A DNA stretch of 64,000 bases from Acidobacteriota bacterium (lineage in GTDB: Bacteria; Acidobacteriota; Terriglobia; Terriglobales; SCQP01), in contig DAHUYO010000005.1 in the NCBI GenBank assembly GCA_027315185.1, positions 26,552-90,551 on the forward strand, given 5' to 3'. Of this stretch, positions 1 through 15,939 are shown in pieces (positions within the stretch are counted from its first letter, which is position 1; every line of letters begins with the position of its first letter). Below the pieces are notes generated by a model that worked only from the letters and a program-made list of their open reading frames with translations, had not been told where the DNA came from and made no database searches. A program made the position numbers and the translations under genes.

Positions 1-77
1 GCCTTCTGGGACGTCCGCCGGCGGCGAACCGGGCGCCGCGGCGCGTCGGCGCCGGAGGAACAAGTGGATGAATGATT

Positions 78-186
78 CGGGCCCCGCGGCCGTAGTGGCG
101 GCGGGGCCCGGGTGGACTGATTGGATTAGCTGGGGCGGCTCGCAAGCCGTCCAAGGAAAGTACTGCGGCGGGCGCTCGCGAGCGCC
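78..186. repeat. Three consecutive stem-loops behind the small ORF
   Basis: Three inverted repeats follow each other. A perfect 16-nt palindrome lies at 171-186, a 7-of-8 bp stem with a 4-nt loop at about 134-152, and a perfect 10-bp stem (78-87 with 101-110) with a 13-nt loop. The first begins on the stop codon of the minus-strand small ORF, so together they look like the structured 3' part of that short transcript. The last stem has no T-run in either direction, so calling it a terminator is inference. Confidence 0.5.
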
Positions 187-245
187 TAGCCTTCAGCCAC
201 CTCGCTAGTCCAAATGTCTAAACGTCTACTGCCGGAATCTTCCAC
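186..245 (-). CDS. Putative 19-aa small protein or leader peptide
   Basis: A GTG-started frame of 19 codons (begins VEDSGSRR, ends TSEVAEG) lies 7 nt behind the GGAGG core of a 16-nt SD. It is followed at once by a palindrome that starts on its stop codon. A second, shorter frame opens at the GTG inside the SD itself. I do not recognise the peptide. It has no signal or membrane segment and carries both acidic and basic residues. The case for translation is the SD and its spacing; the ORF alone is too short to argue from codon bias. It could also be the ribosome-binding part of a regulatory RNA whose product is irrelevant. Confidence 0.35.
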   Translation of the reverse strand: MEDSGSRRLDIWTSEVAEG

Positions 246-246
246 T

Positions 247-262
247 GGACCACCTCCTTTCT
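247..262 (-). promoter_or_regulatory. 16-nt extended Shine-Dalgarno
   Basis: The minus strand reads AGAAAGGAGGTGGTCC. The bacterial 16S 3' end reads GGATCACCTCCTTTCT; all 16 positions can pair with it, 15 as Watson-Crick pairs and one as G-U. Normal SDs use 4-7 pairs. Nothing comparable occurs elsewhere in this window. Confidence 0.75.
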
Positions 263-273
263 AGCGTGCCTTC

Positions 274-302
274 AGTTAAGCACCATCGCCGGCTCATCGC
301 AA
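274..302 (-). promoter_or_regulatory. Candidate sigma70 promoter of the small ORF
   Basis: On the minus strand TTGCGA (297-302), a 17-nt spacer and TTAACT (274-279) lie 11 nt before the extended SD. Transcription would begin near 267, leaving almost no leader before the SD. Confidence 0.4.
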
Positions 303-1928: not shown

Positions 1929-3050
1929 ATGATCCGGACGGAATTCCTAGTAACGCCGCGAGCGGTTACGGCGGCGGCAATGGCCGCCGCCGAAGACTGG
2001 CTGGTGCGGGCCGGCTGGCGGTCGGCGGCGCGGGCCGCCGCCGATGGCTTCGCCGCGGCGCTGCCGGACCGTGGCGCCGCGCCGCCGATGCGCGCGACCG
2101 CGGCGCTGAGCGGCGGCATTTTCTTCGCGCCGGGAACGGAATCGCCGGCGGAGTGGTTTTACGCCGTCGCGAAGTACCCCGCCCCCAGGGAAGAACCGGA
2201 GTTGGAAATTGGCTTGATCCGTGCGAGCGGATTGGCCGCACCCAATCCGTTGCAGGTCTGGCGCGCCGCGTGGAATGCGGTCCTGGCGGGGGAAGCCGAG
2301 CCGGCGTGGCGCGATCCGTTGCAACCAACACGCTTGGCGCCCATGGCCGCCAGCGGTGAGTACGCCCCGCCCCGTCTGCGCTTGGAGGATCTCGACCGGG
2401 CCGCGCTGCTGGCCGACCCCGCCGCCCGCGCCTGGCTGGAGCGATTGCAACAGGCGGGCCGGCTGCGCGGCGCCGATCTGCTGGCGGAATCCGCCGATGC
2501 CCGGGCCGCGCTGGACCGCCTGGCCGCCGCGCATCTGGCGTCAGCGCCATCGCGCGAGGACGACGCCTACACGCCCTCGGCGCAGGCGGCGCGCAGCGAG
2601 CAACAATGGCCGCTGCTTTGGTTGACGGAACGGCTGAGTGAATTGGGCTGCGCCAACGTCCTGTGGCCAAGGGCCCTGGCCGGGGCGATGCCACCGCACG
2701 TGGTGGCGGAGTTCGCCGGGCGTTTGTGGTGCGTGGTCTGCACTCCCGGCACCTGGGACCGGCCGGCGCGGCGGGCGTGGGAGGAGGCGCGCGACCGCTG
2801 GGGGTTTGACCAGACCGGGGTCATCGCCCTCAACGGCGCCGCCGCCGCGCCGCCCGCCGTCGCGCCGGTTCGGACCACGCTGGAATCCGGCGCGGAGGCG
2901 TTGCAGCGCGCCATGGCCGCGGCCGCGCTGGACTATGCGGCGCAGCGAGTGGCGCCGCTGGAGCAAGCCTATGGCTGGCCGCTGGCGGCGCTGCTGCGCC
3001 ATCGCTTCGGCGCCGCCGCGCCGTGCGCCCAAGGCGCCGCCGCGGGATAA
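1929..3050 (+). CDS. Unrecognised protein, 373 aa
   Basis: I do not recognise this family. The protein is soluble, Ala/Arg-rich, with no signal peptide or membrane segment. The second half contains Trp-rich stretches (LLWLTERLSELG, GRLWCVVCTPGTWD, ARDRWGFDQTGVIALNG) that look like a folded alpha/beta domain, and this argues that the plus-strand frame is the real one and not the antisense frames listed beside it. The start is uncertain: the ATG at 1929 is used, and a later ATG at 1980 would also work. It precedes the repeat protein by 170 nt on the same strand, so the two may be co-expressed. Confidence 0.65.
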   Translation: MIRTEFLVTPRAVTAAAMAAAEDWLVRAGWRSAARAAADGFAAALPDRGAAPPMRATAALSGGIFFAPGTESPAEWFYAVAKYPAPREEPELEIGLIRASGLAAPNPLQVWRAAWNAVLAGEAEPAWRDPLQPTRLAPMAASGEYAPPRLRLEDLDRAALLADPAARAWLERLQQAGRLRGADLLAESADARAALDRLAAAHLASAPSREDDAYTPSAQAARSEQQWPLLWLTERLSELGCANVLWPRALAGAMPPHVVAEFAGRLWCVVCTPGTWDRPARRAWEEARDRWGFDQTGVIALNGAAAAPPAVAPVRTTLESGAEALQRAMAAAALDYAAQRVAPLEQAYGWPLAALLRHRFGAAAPCAQGAAAG

Positions 3051-3219: not shown

Positions 3220-5154
3220 TTGGCTGTCCTCACCACCATGCCCTTTAGCGATAGTCCCGCTCCCGTTCCGGCGCCCACGCCCGCCAATCCTGGGCGGGCG
3301 GCGGAACCGGTCATGGCGCGGGTGCAGTTGGGAGGCGACGATCCCGGCATCGCGTTTCAGTTGGGCGGCGGCGAAACGCGCGCCTGGCTGGGGTTGGCGG
3401 GGCAAGCGTCCTATTTGACCCTGCTCGATGAGCAGCAGCGCGTGCGCGGGCAGTTGGCTTTGGGCGCGGAAGGACCGAAGATCACCTTTGCCGACGCCGA
3501 GCGCCGGGCGCGGGCGCAGGTGCGGCTGGGCGCCGAAGGCGCGGGCATCGCGTTATTCGACACCGCGGGAGAAACGCGGGTTTGGCTGGGCCTCGCGGGG
3601 GACAGCTCGTATTTCGGATTGGTGGATGGCGCCGGCAATATCCATGGCCGATTGCGCCTGCGTTCCCGTTCCGGCACGCCGGGATTGGCGCTCAGCGATG
3701 AACACGGCGCCGACCGGGCGCTGGTGGCCATGGAAGCCGATGGGCCGCATATGGTTTTTCTGGCCGGGGCCGGCGAGATCGTGGCGCATCTTGCGGTGAC
3801 CGACCTCGGCGCATGGCTGGCATTGGTGGACCCCGACGGCCAACCCACGGCGGAACTGGCGGTCGCCGAAACCGCCGTTGTCGCCCTGCGCGACGGCCAG
3901 CAGAGGCGCCGGGCGGTGGTCGCGCTGGAAGCCGGGAAACCGTGCTTGGCGGTGCTGGGCGCGGATGGGACTCCGGCCGCCGAGTTGCGCGCGGAGTGCC
4001 TGCCCCTGTGGAACGAACGGGGCCAGATGCGCGCGCACTTGGGAATGACCGAAGGCGGCGCCGCCATTCGCTTGTTCAGCCCCGACGGCGTACAGCGCGC
4101 CGCGTTGCGCGCGGACGCCGATGGACCCTGCTTGGCGATCGCCGGTGACTCCCGCCAGGGACGGGCCATTCTGCGCTGCACCAGCGGAGGACCGGAGCTG
4201 GTGCTGGGCGCCGAAGGCAGCGGGCCGGAGGCGTGCATGGCCTGGCACGACGATGGATGGGAAGCGCGGCTGGGCGAGGGTGGAGACGAACCGCGCGCGC
4301 TCTTCCACCAGCCCGCCGCCGGACCGGCGGGCATCGAACTGCGCGACGCCAACCAGCGGCTGCGCTTGCGGCAGCAGTCCTCGCTGACGCCTGCCGCCAC
4401 CACCAGCGATGCCGTCGTGGCGATGCTGGCGGCCGATGGCACGCCCGCCGCGCAGGTGCGGCTGCCGCCCGACCTGTCAGCGCTGCCGAGCGGCTTCCCC
4501 GCCAGCGGCGCCACCAAAGGCCAATTGCAACTGGCCGAGGATGGCCCAAGTCTGACGTTGGTCGGAGCCGCGCAGGGCAGCGGACGCCTGCGCTTGGCGG
4601 TCAATGACGCCGCCGCCACCGCCTACTGGACCGATGCTGCCGGCATCGAACGGCCCTGGCTGCAATTCGCCGGGGATGCGGCGACCGCCGGCATGCTCGA
4701 CCCCGCCGGGCGTTTGCGCGGCGCATGGGCGACCGACGCGACCACCTGCCGGTTGGAGTTGAATGACGCGCAAGCATCGCCGCGCGCGCTGCTGGCGGTG
4801 ACCGACGATGGCATGCGGCTGGGCCTGCTGCCCGCGGGGGAAGGCAGCACGGCATGGTTCGGCGTGGGCGGAGAAGCGACCTCCTACCTGGGCCTGATGC
4901 CGGATGCGGGACCGCTGACCGCGCTGTTGGCCATGCGCGAAGGAGAAACCGCGCTGGCGATTCTGGATCCCAGCGCCAATCAGCGCGCCGAACTTGCGGT
5001 GGATGCGGAGGGACCGCGCCTGACCTTGGCGGCGGGCAACCGCCGGCCACAGGCGCAGATTCGCATGCAGGCGGGGGGCGCCGCGATCGCCTTCCTCGAC
5101 AACGACGGCGCGGCGCGCGGCTGGCTGGCGCTGGACACCGGCGACGGCGATTAG
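3220..5154 (+). CDS. Protein of ~22-residue tandem repeats, probable beta-solenoid
   Basis: Almost the whole 644-aa product consists of degenerate repeats of about 22 residues. The pattern is R-A-x-L-x-L-x-x-D/E-G-P-x-L-x-L-x-D-x-x-G-x-x, for example RAQVRLGAEGAGIALFDTAG and RVWLGLAGDSSYFGLVDGAG. I can follow about two dozen units from residue 32 to the end, with a less regular stretch near 380-420. The alternating hydrophobic strands with G/D turns suggest a stacked beta-solenoid or beta-propeller. There is no signal peptide or anchor. The track start is a TTG at 3220; an ATG at 3238 (MPFSDSPAP) is equally possible. The N-terminal 30 residues are a Pro/Ala linker. I know no name for this family, and the fold is inferred from periodicity. 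Confidence 0.8.
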   Translation: MAVLTTMPFSDSPAPVPAPTPANPGRAAEPVMARVQLGGDDPGIAFQLGGGETRAWLGLAGQASYLTLLDEQQRVRGQLALGAEGPKITFADAERRARAQVRLGAEGAGIALFDTAGETRVWLGLAGDSSYFGLVDGAGNIHGRLRLRSRSGTPGLALSDEHGADRALVAMEADGPHMVFLAGAGEIVAHLAVTDLGAWLALVDPDGQPTAELAVAETAVVALRDGQQRRRAVVALEAGKPCLAVLGADGTPAAELRAECLPLWNERGQMRAHLGMTEGGAAIRLFSPDGVQRAALRADADGPCLAIAGDSRQGRAILRCTSGGPELVLGAEGSGPEACMAWHDDGWEARLGEGGDEPRALFHQPAAGPAGIELRDANQRLRLRQQSSLTPAATTSDAVVAMLAADGTPAAQVRLPPDLSALPSGFPASGATKGQLQLAEDGPSLTLVGAAQGSGRLRLAVNDAAATAYWTDAAGIERPWLQFAGDAATAGMLDPAGRLRGAWATDATTCRLELNDAQASPRALLAVTDDGMRLGLLPAGEGSTAWFGVGGEATSYLGLMPDAGPLTALLAMREGETALAILDPSANQRAELAVDAEGPRLTLAAGNRRPQAQIRMQAGGAAIAFLDNDGAARGWLALDTGDGD

Positions 5155-6156: not shown

Positions 6157-6639
6157 CTAGGCGTGCCTGGTGGTCCAGGAGGTGGCGGACATGGCGGCTT
6201 CGGCGGCGGGACGCCCCAGCCACAGTCGCAACAAAGCGCCCACCTCCTCGGGAGGCTTCTGGGCGACCAGCAACCGCGCCGCCTGCGGACCGAAGTAGGG
6301 AGCCAACGTCTCCACGGCGGCATTCGCGGCGGCGGCAGAGTCCCCCGCCGGGGCTAGGGGTCGCTGGATGTCCGGCCATGCGGGCGCAACCGCGGCGAAG
6401 GCGGCCCACATCTGCGCTTCGCTGGGCGCCGCCTCCAGCGCCGCGGGGAACAAGGCGGCAAGACCATGCCAATCCTGGCGCAACTCCGCGGCGCGCTGGC
6501 GGCAACGCGGGCAATGCGCCACATGCGCGCCCACATCGGGACCCGCAACCTCCGCTTCTCCCTGCACCCAGGCCAGCAGAACGCCTTCGCTGGGATGGCG
6601 GGAAATGGTGAGCGCGGGAAGCGACCGCGGCCACTTCAT
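6157..6639 (-). CDS. Zinc-finger anti-sigma factor-like protein
   Basis: The 160-aa product carries the zinc-binding H-x3-C-x2-C pattern (HVAHCPRC) near residue 42, typical of the zf-HC2/ZAS family of anti-sigma factors that clamp ECF sigma factors in the cytoplasm. The rest is Ala-rich and helical with no transmembrane segment, so this would be a soluble type. The ATG at 6639 overlaps the sigma stop codon (ATGA), so the two are translationally coupled, as expected for a sigma/anti-sigma pair. The track ORF starting at 6795 extends into the sigma gene and is not real. Confidence 0.8.
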   Translation of the reverse strand: MKWPRSLPALTISRHPSEGVLLAWVQGEAEVAGPDVGAHVAHCPRCRQRAAELRQDWHGLAALFPAALEAAPSEAQMWAAFAAVAPAWPDIQRPLAPAGDSAAAANAAVETLAPYFGPQAARLLVAQKPPEEVGALLRLWLGRPAAEAAMSATSWTTRHA

Positions 6640-7226
6640 CGCGGCGGCTCCTGCGGGGGCTGGTTGGCGGGCGCAAAGGCGGCCCGCAGTTTTTTCACCG
6701 CGCGGGCCAGCAGCGACGCCACCGTGCCGATCTCGATGCCGAGCGCGTCGGCGGTCTCCTGGTAACTCATGCCTTGCAGCCGCAGGCTGAGGCATTCGAA
6801 CTCCCGCCGCGTCAACAAGCGGCGGATGCGGCGCGAGGTTTCGGCCAGATGGTATTCCGTTTCCGGTGTGACCGCGGCTTCGCCAGGCGCGACTTCCTCG
6901 GGCGTTTCCTGGGCCCGCGCGCTGTGGTCGAAGTTGCGCAGGCGGTCGTAGATGTAATTGCGCGCGACGCGGAACAGCCAGGGGCGGCCGGCGGCAGCCA
7001 GCTTGCCCTCCAGGCGGCCGGCGAAATAGCGCAGGAAGGCTTCCTGCACCGCCTCGCGGGCCAGCTCGCGGTCACCCGCCAGCCGCTGGGCATGACGCAG
7101 CAGGGCGGAGGACTCCTCCCGGTACAGCGTCATGACCTCCGCCTCCAGTTCCACGCGGTTGGAGCGGCGCGGGCCGGCGGCGGAACTATCGAACTCGCCC
7201 CAAGCGCAAGCGCGGATGTCGTACAT
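6636..7226 (-). CDS. ECF-type RNA polymerase sigma factor
   Basis: This 196-aa protein has the two sigma70 regions of ECF factors. Region 2 is about residues 32-98 (LYREESSALLRHAQRL; WLFRVARNYIYDRLR). Region 4 is about 135-185, with the helix-turn-helix YQETADALGIEIGTVASLLARA. A Glu/Pro-rich linker joins them. A TACACT box ends 7 nt before the ATG, so the transcript is predicted to be leaderless. It is followed without a gap by the zinc anti-sigma gene and a membrane protein. The N-terminal ~25 residues are an extension not shared with the family. Confidence 0.93.
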   Translation of the reverse strand: MYDIRACAWGEFDSSAAGPRRSNRVELEAEVMTLYREESSALLRHAQRLAGDRELAREAVQEAFLRYFAGRLEGKLAAAGRPWLFRVARNYIYDRLRNFDHSARAQETPEEVAPGEAAVTPETEYHLAETSRRIRRLLTRREFECLSLRLQGMSYQETADALGIEIGTVASLLARAVKKLRAAFAPANQPPQEPPR

Positions 7227-7304: not shown

Positions 7305-9935
7305 CTAGGCGTGCAATTCCCCGGCGCCGCCTCCGCCGCGGTCGGGCAGGGCCGGGCCCAGCCGCGCCTCAAACCAGTCTTGAAGCTGGCGGGTAATCTC
7401 CGCCGGATCTTGGCCGGAGATGCGAATGGGCTCGCCAAAGGTGATCCTTGCCCGGCCGCGGCGCACGCGCTTGGCGCCGGCGGGTAAAATTGCAAACACG
7501 CCTTCGACCGTCACCGGCACCACCGGCAACGCCAGGGAGCGGGCGAAGACGCCGATACCCGGGCGGAAATCGTGCAGCCTGCCGTCGAGCGTGCGAGCGC
7601 CTTCGGGGAAGATCAGGGGGCAATACCCGCGGTCGGCCAGTTCCCCGGCATGGCGGAGCGCGGGCTCAATGCCGGTGGTGGCGGAGAGCACAAAGATGTT
7701 GAAGAACATCTCCAGCAGCCGGTAGCGGCGCTGCGCGCGGCGCCGCGCGGACGCCGATGCTCCCGGCAGGAACTTGGCGCGAAAGGCGTCCAACGCCATT
7801 GCGGGCGCCACCCATGGGCGCCAGCGCAGCGGCAGAGCGCGGAGTATGACCGGAACGTCCAGCATGCTTTGGTGGTTGGCGATGAACAGCACGGGGCGGC
7901 GCAGGGAGCGCAGGTGCTCCCGTCCGCGCACCTCGACGCGCGCCACGCTGCGCAGCGGCGGATAAACCAACAGCCAGCGCAGCGGCTCCCGGCACCAGCG
8001 CACCAGCGGAGAGAGCGGCCAGCGGGAATAGCGGAACGGACGCCGGGCGGGCGGCATGGCCGGCGGCGCCTTTCCGGCGGCGGGCAGCGTCGTGGCGGGC
8101 GGCGCCTCGGCAGCGGCGATCAATGCTCCCAACCTTCCCACCGTCTCCGCCCGCGCCAGCTCGGTTTCCTCGAGCTCGATGCTGCGCGACGCCAGCCACG
8201 CCAGCAACTCCACGCGGTCAAGCGAACCTAGACCGAGATCTTCCGCTAAGCGCGCCTCCGGTAGCAGGCGTTCGCGGCCGACGCCCAACAAGCGGGCCAG
8301 ATACTCCCGCCAATCCTCCGCCGCCGCCCCCGCCGTGGCGGATTGGCCGTTGACCCAGGCCGCCACCGCCGCGCGGCGCAGCTTGTGCGTGGAGGCGGTG
8401 CGGGGCAGCGCCGCTTCCGGCCAACGGGAAAACGCCGCGATCCGCTGGTGCGCCTCTAACCGGCCATTCGCCGCCGCCACCGCCACCGCGAGTTGCTCGT
8501 CTTCCAAACCCGGCGCCACCAGGACCGCGTGTACGCGGGCGCGGCCGGCCCGCTCTTCCGCCACCACCGCGCTTTCCGCGATTCCGGGCTGGGCGTCCAG
8601 CGCCGCTTCCACATCTTGCGGATAGACGTTCATCCCTTCGGCGGTGACGACGACTTCTTTTTTCCGCCCGAGATAAATCAGGTTGCCTTCCGCGTCCATC
8701 CGGCCGAGATCGCCGGTGCGCAGCCAACCCGCGGCAAAGGCGTCCGCGGTGGCGGCAGCGTTCTGGTAATAGCCGGGCGAGACGTTGGGCCCGCGCACCA
8801 AGATCTCGCCGTCGTCGGCGATGCGGATCTCCATGCCCGCCAGCTTGCGGCCCACCGCACCGCGGCGAATTTTGAAGGGATGGGTGATGGCCACGGCAGG
8901 CGCGGTTTCGGTGAGCCCGTAACCCTGCACCACGGCGTAACCAAGCGCTTGCCACAGGGCTTCCTGCTCGCTGGGCAAGGCCGCGCCGCCCACCACCAGC
9001 GCCCACATCTTCCAGCCCAGCTTGCGGTGCAGGCGGCGCCAATGCCACCAGCGCCAGGCCACGCCATGCCCTTGCGCCGCGCCGATTACCGCCGGCGCGT
9101 CCCCGGCGCCCGCCGCCTGCCGCGCCCACTGGGAAAAGAGCTCGACCTCCCGCGGCACGGCCACGACCACGGAGGCGCGGGTTTGTTTCACCGCGGCCGC
9201 CACCGCTTCCCCGCCCTGCGCCTCCAAATAGACCACCGTGCTGGCCAGCAGCGGAGGAATCAACAGACCCATCACCTGGCCGAACAAATGGCTGAGGGGA
9301 ATCAAGTGCACGAAGCGCAAGGGCAGCAGGGGCCGGGCCCAACTTTGGTATTTGCCTACTTCCTGGGCGATGGGCCGCAGATTGGCCAGCACATTGCCGT
9401 GCGTAATCATCACGCCCTTGGGTTCGGCGGTGGCGCCGGAGGTATAGACGATTTCCAGCAGGTCGCCTTCCCGCACGGGTGCGGGCGCGGCGGGCGCGGC
9501 GGGCGGCAACGGCTCCAAATCCTCGAAGCGCAGGGCCAGCGCCCAATCGGCGGGGCCAAACGCCGCCATGCGCTCGGCCGAGGCGAGTAAGACCCGCGCG
9601 CCCGTCTGTTGCTGAATGGTCCGCGCGTAGCGGGGAGAAAACGCCGCATCCAGCGGCACCGCCACCATGCCGGCCAGGACCGTGGCGTAGAACGCGATGG
9701 CCCAGGCCGCGCCGGACGGCCCCCAGATCAGAACCTTTTCGCCGCGTTCGGCGCCGGCTTGCAGCCGCGTCTGGAGGGCGAAGGCTTTGCCCAGGATCTC
9801 CGCGTAGGTATAAGCGCGCGTGCGGTACAACCGCCGGTCAATGACCGCCGCGCGCTCGCCCAGCGCCGCCATGCCGGCGATGAAACCGGGCAAACTCGCC
9901 AGCCGGTCCGGGTTTGCCAGGTTCGCGCCCGCCAC
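7305..9935 (-). CDS. AMP-binding acyl synthetase / acyl carrier / PlsC acyltransferase fusion
   Basis: An 876-aa three-domain protein. Residues ~1-530 are an adenylate-forming acyl synthetase (YTSGATAEPKGVMITHGN near 164, YGLTETAP, and the hinge YLGRKKEVVVTAEGMNVYP). Residues ~545-610 are an acyl-carrier domain with the phosphopantetheine serine in GLGSLDRVEL (Ser571). Residues ~660-860 are a lysophospholipid acyltransferase with NHQSMLD (H688-D693 block) and FPEGAR near 776. The protein could activate a free fatty acid, load its own carrier domain and transfer the acyl group to a lysophospholipid. This is like E. coli Aas, but with the domain order reversed and an in-built carrier. The start is a GTG with a TACGAT box 11 nt upstream. 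The membrane association is inferred. Confidence 0.9.
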   Translation of the reverse strand: MAGANLANPDRLASLPGFIAGMAALGERAAVIDRRLYRTRAYTYAEILGKAFALQTRLQAGAERGEKVLIWGPSGAAWAIAFYATVLAGMVAVPLDAAFSPRYARTIQQQTGARVLLASAERMAAFGPADWALALRFEDLEPLPPAAPAAPAPVREGDLLEIVYTSGATAEPKGVMITHGNVLANLRPIAQEVGKYQSWARPLLPLRFVHLIPLSHLFGQVMGLLIPPLLASTVVYLEAQGGEAVAAAVKQTRASVVVAVPREVELFSQWARQAAGAGDAPAVIGAAQGHGVAWRWWHWRRLHRKLGWKMWALVVGGAALPSEQEALWQALGYAVVQGYGLTETAPAVAITHPFKIRRGAVGRKLAGMEIRIADDGEILVRGPNVSPGYYQNAAATADAFAAGWLRTGDLGRMDAEGNLIYLGRKKEVVVTAEGMNVYPQDVEAALDAQPGIAESAVVAEERAGRARVHAVLVAPGLEDEQLAVAVAAANGRLEAHQRIAAFSRWPEAALPRTASTHKLRRAAVAAWVNGQSATAGAAAEDWREYLARLLGVGRERLLPEARLAEDLGLGSLDRVELLAWLASRSIELEETELARAETVGRLGALIAAAEAPPATTLPAAGKAPPAMPPARRPFRYSRWPLSPLVRWCREPLRWLLVYPPLRSVARVEVRGREHLRSLRRPVLFIANHQSMLDVPVILRALPLRWRPWVAPAMALDAFRAKFLPGASASARRRAQRRYRLLEMFFNIFVLSATTGIEPALRHAGELADRGYCPLIFPEGARTLDGRLHDFRPGIGVFARSLALPVVPVTVEGVFAILPAGAKRVRRGRARITFGEPIRISGQDPAEITRQLQDWFEARLGPALPDRGGGGAGELHA

Positions 9936-15523: not shown

Positions 15524-15939
15524 CCCCGTCGGATCCGAAACTGGAAGCCGCGATCCGCGCGGCGCTGGACGCCGGAACGACGCCGGATTTGCCGGAGGAT
15601 TTCGCCCAGCGCACGGCGGCGCGGGCCGTGCGCGCGGCGGCGGCGCCGCCACGGCAGCCGCGGCGAGCCGGTTGGCGCTGGTGGCTGGCGCCGGCGGCGG
15701 CGGCGATTTTGCTGGCCGGCGTGGGACTGCGGCGGTTCGAACACCGCTGCGGCGCCGAACCCGCCGTCCGTTACATGGAACGCGGCGCGAGCCCGCGGAT
15801 CCCGGCGCGGCAGGCGCGGGTGCGCGAGTTGCATTATGCCGTGGCCGTAACGCAGCGCGAAATCGCGGAGATCACCGGCACGGCCGTGCGCCATGCCATG
15901 CAGGCCATTCCCCATTCCACTGGAAGGAACCAACTATGA
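15520..15939 (+). CDS. Single-pass membrane protein, candidate anti-sigma factor
   Basis: 139 aa with an N-terminal helical, acidic part (MTPSDPKLEAAIRAALDAG), one membrane segment (WWLAPAAAAILLAGVGL, about residues 52-68) and a C-terminal exposed part. There is no zinc motif. Translational coupling to the ECF gene (ATGA) and topology make it the likely anti-sigma factor of that sigma; this is inference. It is also coupled to the next gene by an ATGA overlap. Confidence 0.75.
   Translation: MTPSDPKLEAAIRAALDAGTTPDLPEDFAQRTAARAVRAAAAPPRQPRRAGWRWWLAPAAAAILLAGVGLRRFEHRCGAEPAVRYMERGASPRIPARQARVRELHYAVAVTQREIAEITGTAVRHAMQAIPHSTGRNQL

Follow-up and report, generated by a model that had tools for sequence, protein, structure and literature searches.

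The minus strand of the window analysed here, a 64,000-nt stretch of DNA from an Acidobacteriota bacterium (GCA_027315185.1, contig DAHUYO010000005.1, 26,552–90,551 of the forward strand), carries at window positions 72–267 an RNA element that almost certainly belongs to the Rfam family Ms_IGR-5 (RF02471). The cmscan match covers the full model (1–184) and scores 47.7 bits against a gathering threshold of 45, an excess of 2.7 bits, and membership is concluded from this score together with a shared anatomy; the arrangement, which the sequence-only reading of this DNA could not name, can thus be named. Comparison with relatives suggests a free-standing gene for a structured, translated sRNA of ∼200 nt on which a ribosome would be loaded, parked at a stop codon and made to control a helical switch, a model to which we assign a probability of about 0.4; that the function depends on ribosome binding and translation is, as a separate matter, likely. 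An RNA filed as an actinobacterial sRNA is a near-universal gene in at least one other order and is present in many groups, its anatomy points at the ribosome, and the question raised is whether bacteria possess a dedicated RNA that holds or counts ribosomes. Tractable hosts for the family include M. smegmatis, Streptomyces and Caulobacter.

Promoter, 16S-complementary leader and hairpins

All parts of the element lie on the minus strand. The promoter (274–302) consists of the −35 box TTGCGA (302–297), a 17-nt spacer and the −10 box TTAACT (279–274), from whose position the transcript is predicted to start near 267, and it is followed after a gap of 11 nt by a sequence complementary to the 3′ tail of 16S rRNA, both as the sequence-only reading had described. 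The complementary stretch, SD1 (AGAAAGGAGGTGGTCCAG, 245–262), was evaluated against the 16S ends of two same-genus genomes (...GCGGCTGGATCACCTCCTTTCT); no 16S end is seen in the assembly to which the window belongs. SD1 forms 18 contiguous pairs with this tail, including one internal G-U, or 19 with an edge U-G at position 244, so that the extended pairing claimed earlier is real and its length, given as 16 nt, was too short. The duplex has a predicted energy of −35.0 kcal/mol, compared with −11.6 for a plain AAGGAGGT core and with a mean of −10.7 (sd 3.1) for 42,652 24-mers of the window, in which the best other 16S-pairing place reaches −25.3 kcal/mol and is thus ∼10 kcal/mol weaker. The SD1 18-mer is unique in its own 3.77-Mb genome, where the next best sites have three mismatches and the reversed control has no match, and seven genomes of other groups each have a single copy of AAAGGAGGTGGTCC, at the element. 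A chance 16S match in an intergenic stretch, for which nothing speaks beyond the short length, is refuted by this uniqueness, by the energy gap and by conservation, and its probability is negligible.

Complementarity was also assessed reciprocally in 29 elements of the window's order that were chosen by the end of the micro-ORF alone. Extended 16S complementarity is present in all 29, with a mean of −35.2 kcal/mol, and in most of these genomes the SD takes the form AAAGGAGG(A)TGATCCAGCC, with a bulged base and a further extension. Loci of this order (L234–L263) have one extra SD base, GGAGG-A-TGATCC, yet their complementarity reaches AGCC. Long SDs are said, in work by Komarova et al. (2002; cited in PMC8470358), to inhibit translation unless protein S1 helps. 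In S. aureus extended SD pairing is used productively for start selection, so very long SDs are not always inhibitory (PMC13009471). A literature search found no mention of the SD sequence in a bacterial context.

An RNA that acts only as an antisense to the 16S tail, as a decoy, probe or shield of the 30S 3′ end serving to block initiation, in 3′-end quality control or in protection from nucleases, would account for the coverage of nearly the whole tail, for its retention in the window's order despite the bulge and for its extension to AGCC; RNase R, moreover, is known to degrade the anti-SD (PMC10901742). In this explanation the ORF would be incidental, whereas nearly all elements have an in-frame start and a stop at a fixed distance, neither of which a pure antisense needs, and we regard it as rather unlikely.

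The three stem-loops of the earlier description are likewise present. The P2a stem (GGCGCTCGCGAGCGCC, 186–171) begins on the last base (G) of the stop codon and lies in a region that is variable among relatives, the P2b hairpin CGGCT-TGCG-AGCCG occupies about 149–136, and the terminator-like hairpin P3 (CGGGCCCCGC...GCGGGGCCCG, 110–78), evident in sequence, in the minimum free energy (MFE) fold and as a hairpin in Rfam, is followed by few T in the window copy. The predicted fold of the 197-nt RNA is better than that of shuffled sequences (z = −2.8). A further hairpin, P0 (206–252), pairs TGGTCC (252–247) with GGACTA (211–206) in the MFE structure, so that the GUCC flanking the SD is paired with a GGAC that precedes GAGGUG and the start codon lies in the loop. 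Across 118 distinct elements the element's own P0 partner beats shuffled partners (mean rank 0.88), and P0 explains part of the downstream SD flank (GUCC) in many lineages. In the window's order most of the other genomes show no GGAC partner, yet their 16S complementarity is retained and reaches AGCC.

A conserved micro-ORF, a second SD-like site and a covarying helix

The micro-ORF (245–186) has 19 codons, VEDSGSRRLDIWTSEVAEG, with a GTG start at 245–243 and a TAG stop at 188–186, in agreement with the sequence-only reading. Selection by SD, leader and GAGGTG gave 134 elements, of which 127 have an ATG, GTG or TTG in frame at the proper distance with no intervening stop, compared with 16% when the inner sequence is shuffled, and the frame is open in all 29 elements of the window's order selected by ORF end alone. 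In the collection of 140 elements the start codons are TTG (62), ATG (49) and GTG (29) and the stop codons TAG (108), TGA (18) and TAA (14); UAG may have a structural role. The ORF is exactly 12 codons long in 94 of the 140, with extremes of 11 and 19. Two actinobacterial loci have no in-frame ATG, GTG or TTG, one having CTG and the other only ACG, possibly as rare start codons. So short a frame, opened in most cases by UUG or GUG, is likely to escape gene finders.

Conservation of the frame is not accompanied by conservation of its product. Between similar pairs of elements, in the segment from start to GAG, substitutions number 364, 315 and 276 at codon positions 1, 2 and 3, and codon changes comprise 588 non-synonymous and 177 synonymous cases; these pairs are not independent, and a selected protein would give the opposite bias. 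Purifying selection on the amino-acid sequence is thus not seen in this comparison, and equal change at the three codon positions makes the peptide an unlikely product; translation appears to be kept and the peptide not, as judged from these substitutions. A functional micropeptide gene, one of the proposals of the sequence-only reading, which envisaged high expression, has in its favour the conserved ORF, an EV near the C-terminus and the significant ribosome-protected reads that Ribo-seq detected on Ms_IGR-5 homologues of M. abscessus and M. smegmatis (PMC4974804). The free change of the peptide, the variation of its N-terminal residues and length, and the retention of GAGGTG where the frame differs nevertheless make this explanation quite improbable, and a literature search found no naming of such a peptide.

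The hexamer GAGGTG, referred to here as SD2 (198–203), ends 9 nt before the stop codon in the window copy, and exactly this spacing is kept in 134 of the 140 elements. Since that collection was partly selected for GAGGTG, a separate search was made by SD alone; the hexamer is present in all 15 actinobacterial elements so obtained, in one of them in another reading frame. It stands in another frame in four Rhodobacterales elements, one planctomycete and one actinobacterium, and its retention despite the differing frame points to selection on RNA and not on peptide. When the last sense codon occupies the P site, the hexamer sits 6 nt upstream of that codon, as far as an SD lies from the P site in an initiation complex. 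Pairing with the anti-SD is not the only possible reason for its conservation, because its GGUG also belongs to a helix, P1.

P1 pairs GGUG and the last codons with the bases that immediately precede the terminator-like hairpin. In the window the 5′ strand GGTGGCTGA (193–201), inside the last codons, pairs with the 3′ strand TCAGTCCACC (111–120), as GGTGGCTGA/TCAGT(C)CACC, and the helix is part of the single-sequence MFE structure. In relatives the corresponding strands are GGTGACTGC/GCAGTCACC, GGTGCCTG/CAGG(C)CACC, GGTGGCTACG/CGTAGCCACC and GGTGCACGG/CCG(A)TGCACC. A conserved joining motif, AATCC, occupies 123–127 in the window; in 80 of the 93 relatives that could be anchored it starts 16–18 nt ahead of the P1 end. 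An earlier test in which the partner site could be chosen freely was noisy in GC-rich DNA (rank 0.62), a difficulty solved by fixing the 3′ site through the AATCC motif and the hairpin and not through pairing. With 55 distinct 5′ strands so anchored, each element's own partner is far better than the partners of other elements (permutation z = −9.4, 0 of 20,000), statistics that overstate independence as many relatives are closely related. P1 is missing from the Rfam consensus, in which its 3′ strand is unpaired.

The covariation of P1 also bears on a trans-acting base-pairing sRNA, in which translation would open P1 and expose AAUCC..CAGUCACC to mRNA targets, the micro-ORF serving as a seed-exposure switch. 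Conservation among the unpaired or semi-paired parts is highest in the AAUCC motif and CACC, and an own promoter, a terminator-like hairpin and varying neighbours are what such an RNA would have. The 3′ strand of P1, however, varies with its 5′ strand, which a fixed mRNA seed would not allow, and the 18-nt 16S match would be left unexplained; a trans-acting sRNA of this type is accordingly judged unlikely.

In the preferred model of a parked ribosome and a switching helix, SD1 at the 5′ end would load a 30S subunit through base pairs that span almost the entire 16S tail, and the loaded ribosome would read a short ORF whose only task is to carry it to the right place. At the stop codon GAGGUG would hold the terminating or post-termination ribosome, as suggested by its location 6 nt 5′ of the P-site codon at initiation-complex spacing. 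Because the position of a held ribosome overlaps P1, such a ribosome would keep P1 open, and the unoccupied RNA would close P1 onto the terminator stem. The RNA would then exist in ribosome-occupied and ribosome-free forms and act as a ribosome trap or an occupancy sensor, with possible outputs, among which the sequence does not decide, in sequestering of 30S, exposure of a seed or altered RNA stability. A trap or sensor is favoured because it explains together the extreme 16S pairing, the obligatory translation without peptide conservation, the fixed distance between stop and SD2 and a helix that a ribosome would open. The ribosome-protected reads on the mycobacterial homologues and the transcripts seen in Streptomyces speak for the model as well. 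When the ORF has 12 codons, as it most often does, 33 nt separate the two P-site positions; this is roughly the length of one ribosome, and an initiating ribosome could therefore share the RNA with a parked one. Holding at the stop codon, switching of P1 and any cellular effect are what we infer from the comparisons above. A regulatory RNA engaging the anti-SD and the trapping of ribosomes, both raised by the sequence-only reading, are still the best guesses, to which the present analysis adds a second SD-like site at a fixed spacing from the stop and a covarying helix tying the ORF end to the terminator. The broader proposition, that this is an unrecognised, widespread class of RNA acting on the ribosome, in which an extreme SD loads, a second SD parks and a covarying helix reports occupancy, is tentative, with the odds against it.

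Distribution and genomic setting

The ORF-end motif, with at most two mismatches, is present in 57 of 70 genomes of the window's order, nearly always once, and the reversed control has no match. The motif misses some copies: a same-genus genome has a nearly identical copy (L286), in which the promoter is also kept, and copies in three more genomes were found by SD. Surveys of the phylum carried out first gave 10 of 199 and 17 of 396 genomes, figures that badly underestimate the frequency, as the order-level search indicates. Beyond the window's order, at least eight bacterial groups have relatives; the matches listed from a species-level genome collection include records of Actinobacteria, Rhodobacterales, Sumerlaeota, Deltaproteobacteria, Zixibacteria, Planctomycetaceae, Nitrospirae, Spirochaetia and Bryobacterales, named as labelled in the collection and in some cases metagenome bins, and most records listed have the full anatomy. 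A spirochaete search with one fixed spacing gave no match and also missed the known spirochaete member, and is therefore no sign that the element is lacking there. The element is usually single copy per genome. Three candidate loci were rejected as chance matches within coding sequence, and a phage origin was rejected since the two viral matches lie within apparently ordinary coding sequence. The impression that the arrangement looks selected, which had been made to depend on conservation of the block in related genomes, is borne out, promoter, SD, micro-ORF and hairpins being conserved across many bacterial groups.

The best −10 box ends 15–17 nt before AGGAGG in 108 of 139 relatives, and the neighbouring genes, judged by ORFs and not by full annotation, differ between lineages and lie on either strand, so that a free-standing gene is the simplest reading. 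In the window the ORFs beside the element (470–1801 on the minus strand, 1929–3050 and 3220–5154 on the plus strand) are long and have no Pfam match. Farther along are an ECF-type sigma factor (6636–7226), an AMP-binding/acyltransferase protein (7305–9935) and a tRNA-like ARAGORN match (15674–15757, plus strand) whose anticodon is not clear and which is possibly spurious. A cis-acting leader or attenuator of the next gene would be expected to precede a conserved gene on the same strand, and constant neighbours were found within single lineages only. Four Rhodobacterales elements lie ∼100–170 nt before an ArfB-like ribosome-rescue gene with a GGQ motif, for one of which Pfam finds an RF-1 domain, and three Bryobacterales elements, whose micro-ORF ends in TGA and not TAG, lie ∼180–240 nt before a bL31 gene. 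These lineage-constant neighbours fit the ribosome theme and would suit a leader; elsewhere, however, the next gene differs and is often on the other strand, and the RNA ends in its own hairpin, which renders the leader improbable. An upstream leader of mraZ, by analogy with UpsM, was rejected, there being no MraZ near any element.

Comparison with known systems

The frameshift site of prfB has an internal SD-like element close to the stop codon at a short, strained spacing. The present element shares an SD-like sequence close to a stop codon; its 6-nt spacing to the P site, however, is initiation-like, and a frameshift product is not evident. To rnTrpL/peTrpL of Sinorhizobium and other leader-peptide RNAs the likeness lies in a short translated RNA whose fold may be set by translation. 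As described in PMC7298713, rnTrpL is attenuator-derived and its peptide acts in trans, whereas the present element has no conserved downstream operon and its peptide is unconstrained.

With Ms_IGR-5 the window copy has in common the SD, GAGGUGGCUG, the hairpins and the terminator-like stem. The family is transcribed in S. lividans (PMC8079986) and forms a transcription unit in S. avermitilis (PMC8780764), and the available portions of these sources and of PMC4974804 assign it no function. It is described, with no curated taxonomic limit, as a non-coding "actinobacterial sRNA", whereas relatives outside Actinobacteria are plentiful, and its Rfam consensus, besides being without P1, brings the ORF end into a helix with part of the SD, a helix that is mismatched in the window copy.

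The Caulobacter sRNA CC2171 (RF01867) matches the window weakly, with 18.3 bits against a threshold of 75. At E ≤ 0.01 RF01867 has matches in 15 of the 58 alphaproteobacterial genomes searched, one of them above threshold, and also in Deinobacterium chartae among the controls; the matched loci share the SD start and likewise have a micro-ORF and a closing helix. Some ORFs of the alphaproteobacterial loci (L214–L225) end in EVxxx-stop or contain VEQP, SEQP or MEQP. CC2171 resembles the present element in the GAAAGGAGGUGAUCCAGUG start, the micro-ORF and the closing helix before the terminator, and one member ends GAG GTC AGC GCC GCG TAA, which is EVxxx-stop; it differs in its longer ORFs and in a closing helix that uses the first codons. 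On these sequence features CC2171 is probably the alphaproteobacterial counterpart of Ms_IGR-5, belonging to the same or to a sister family.
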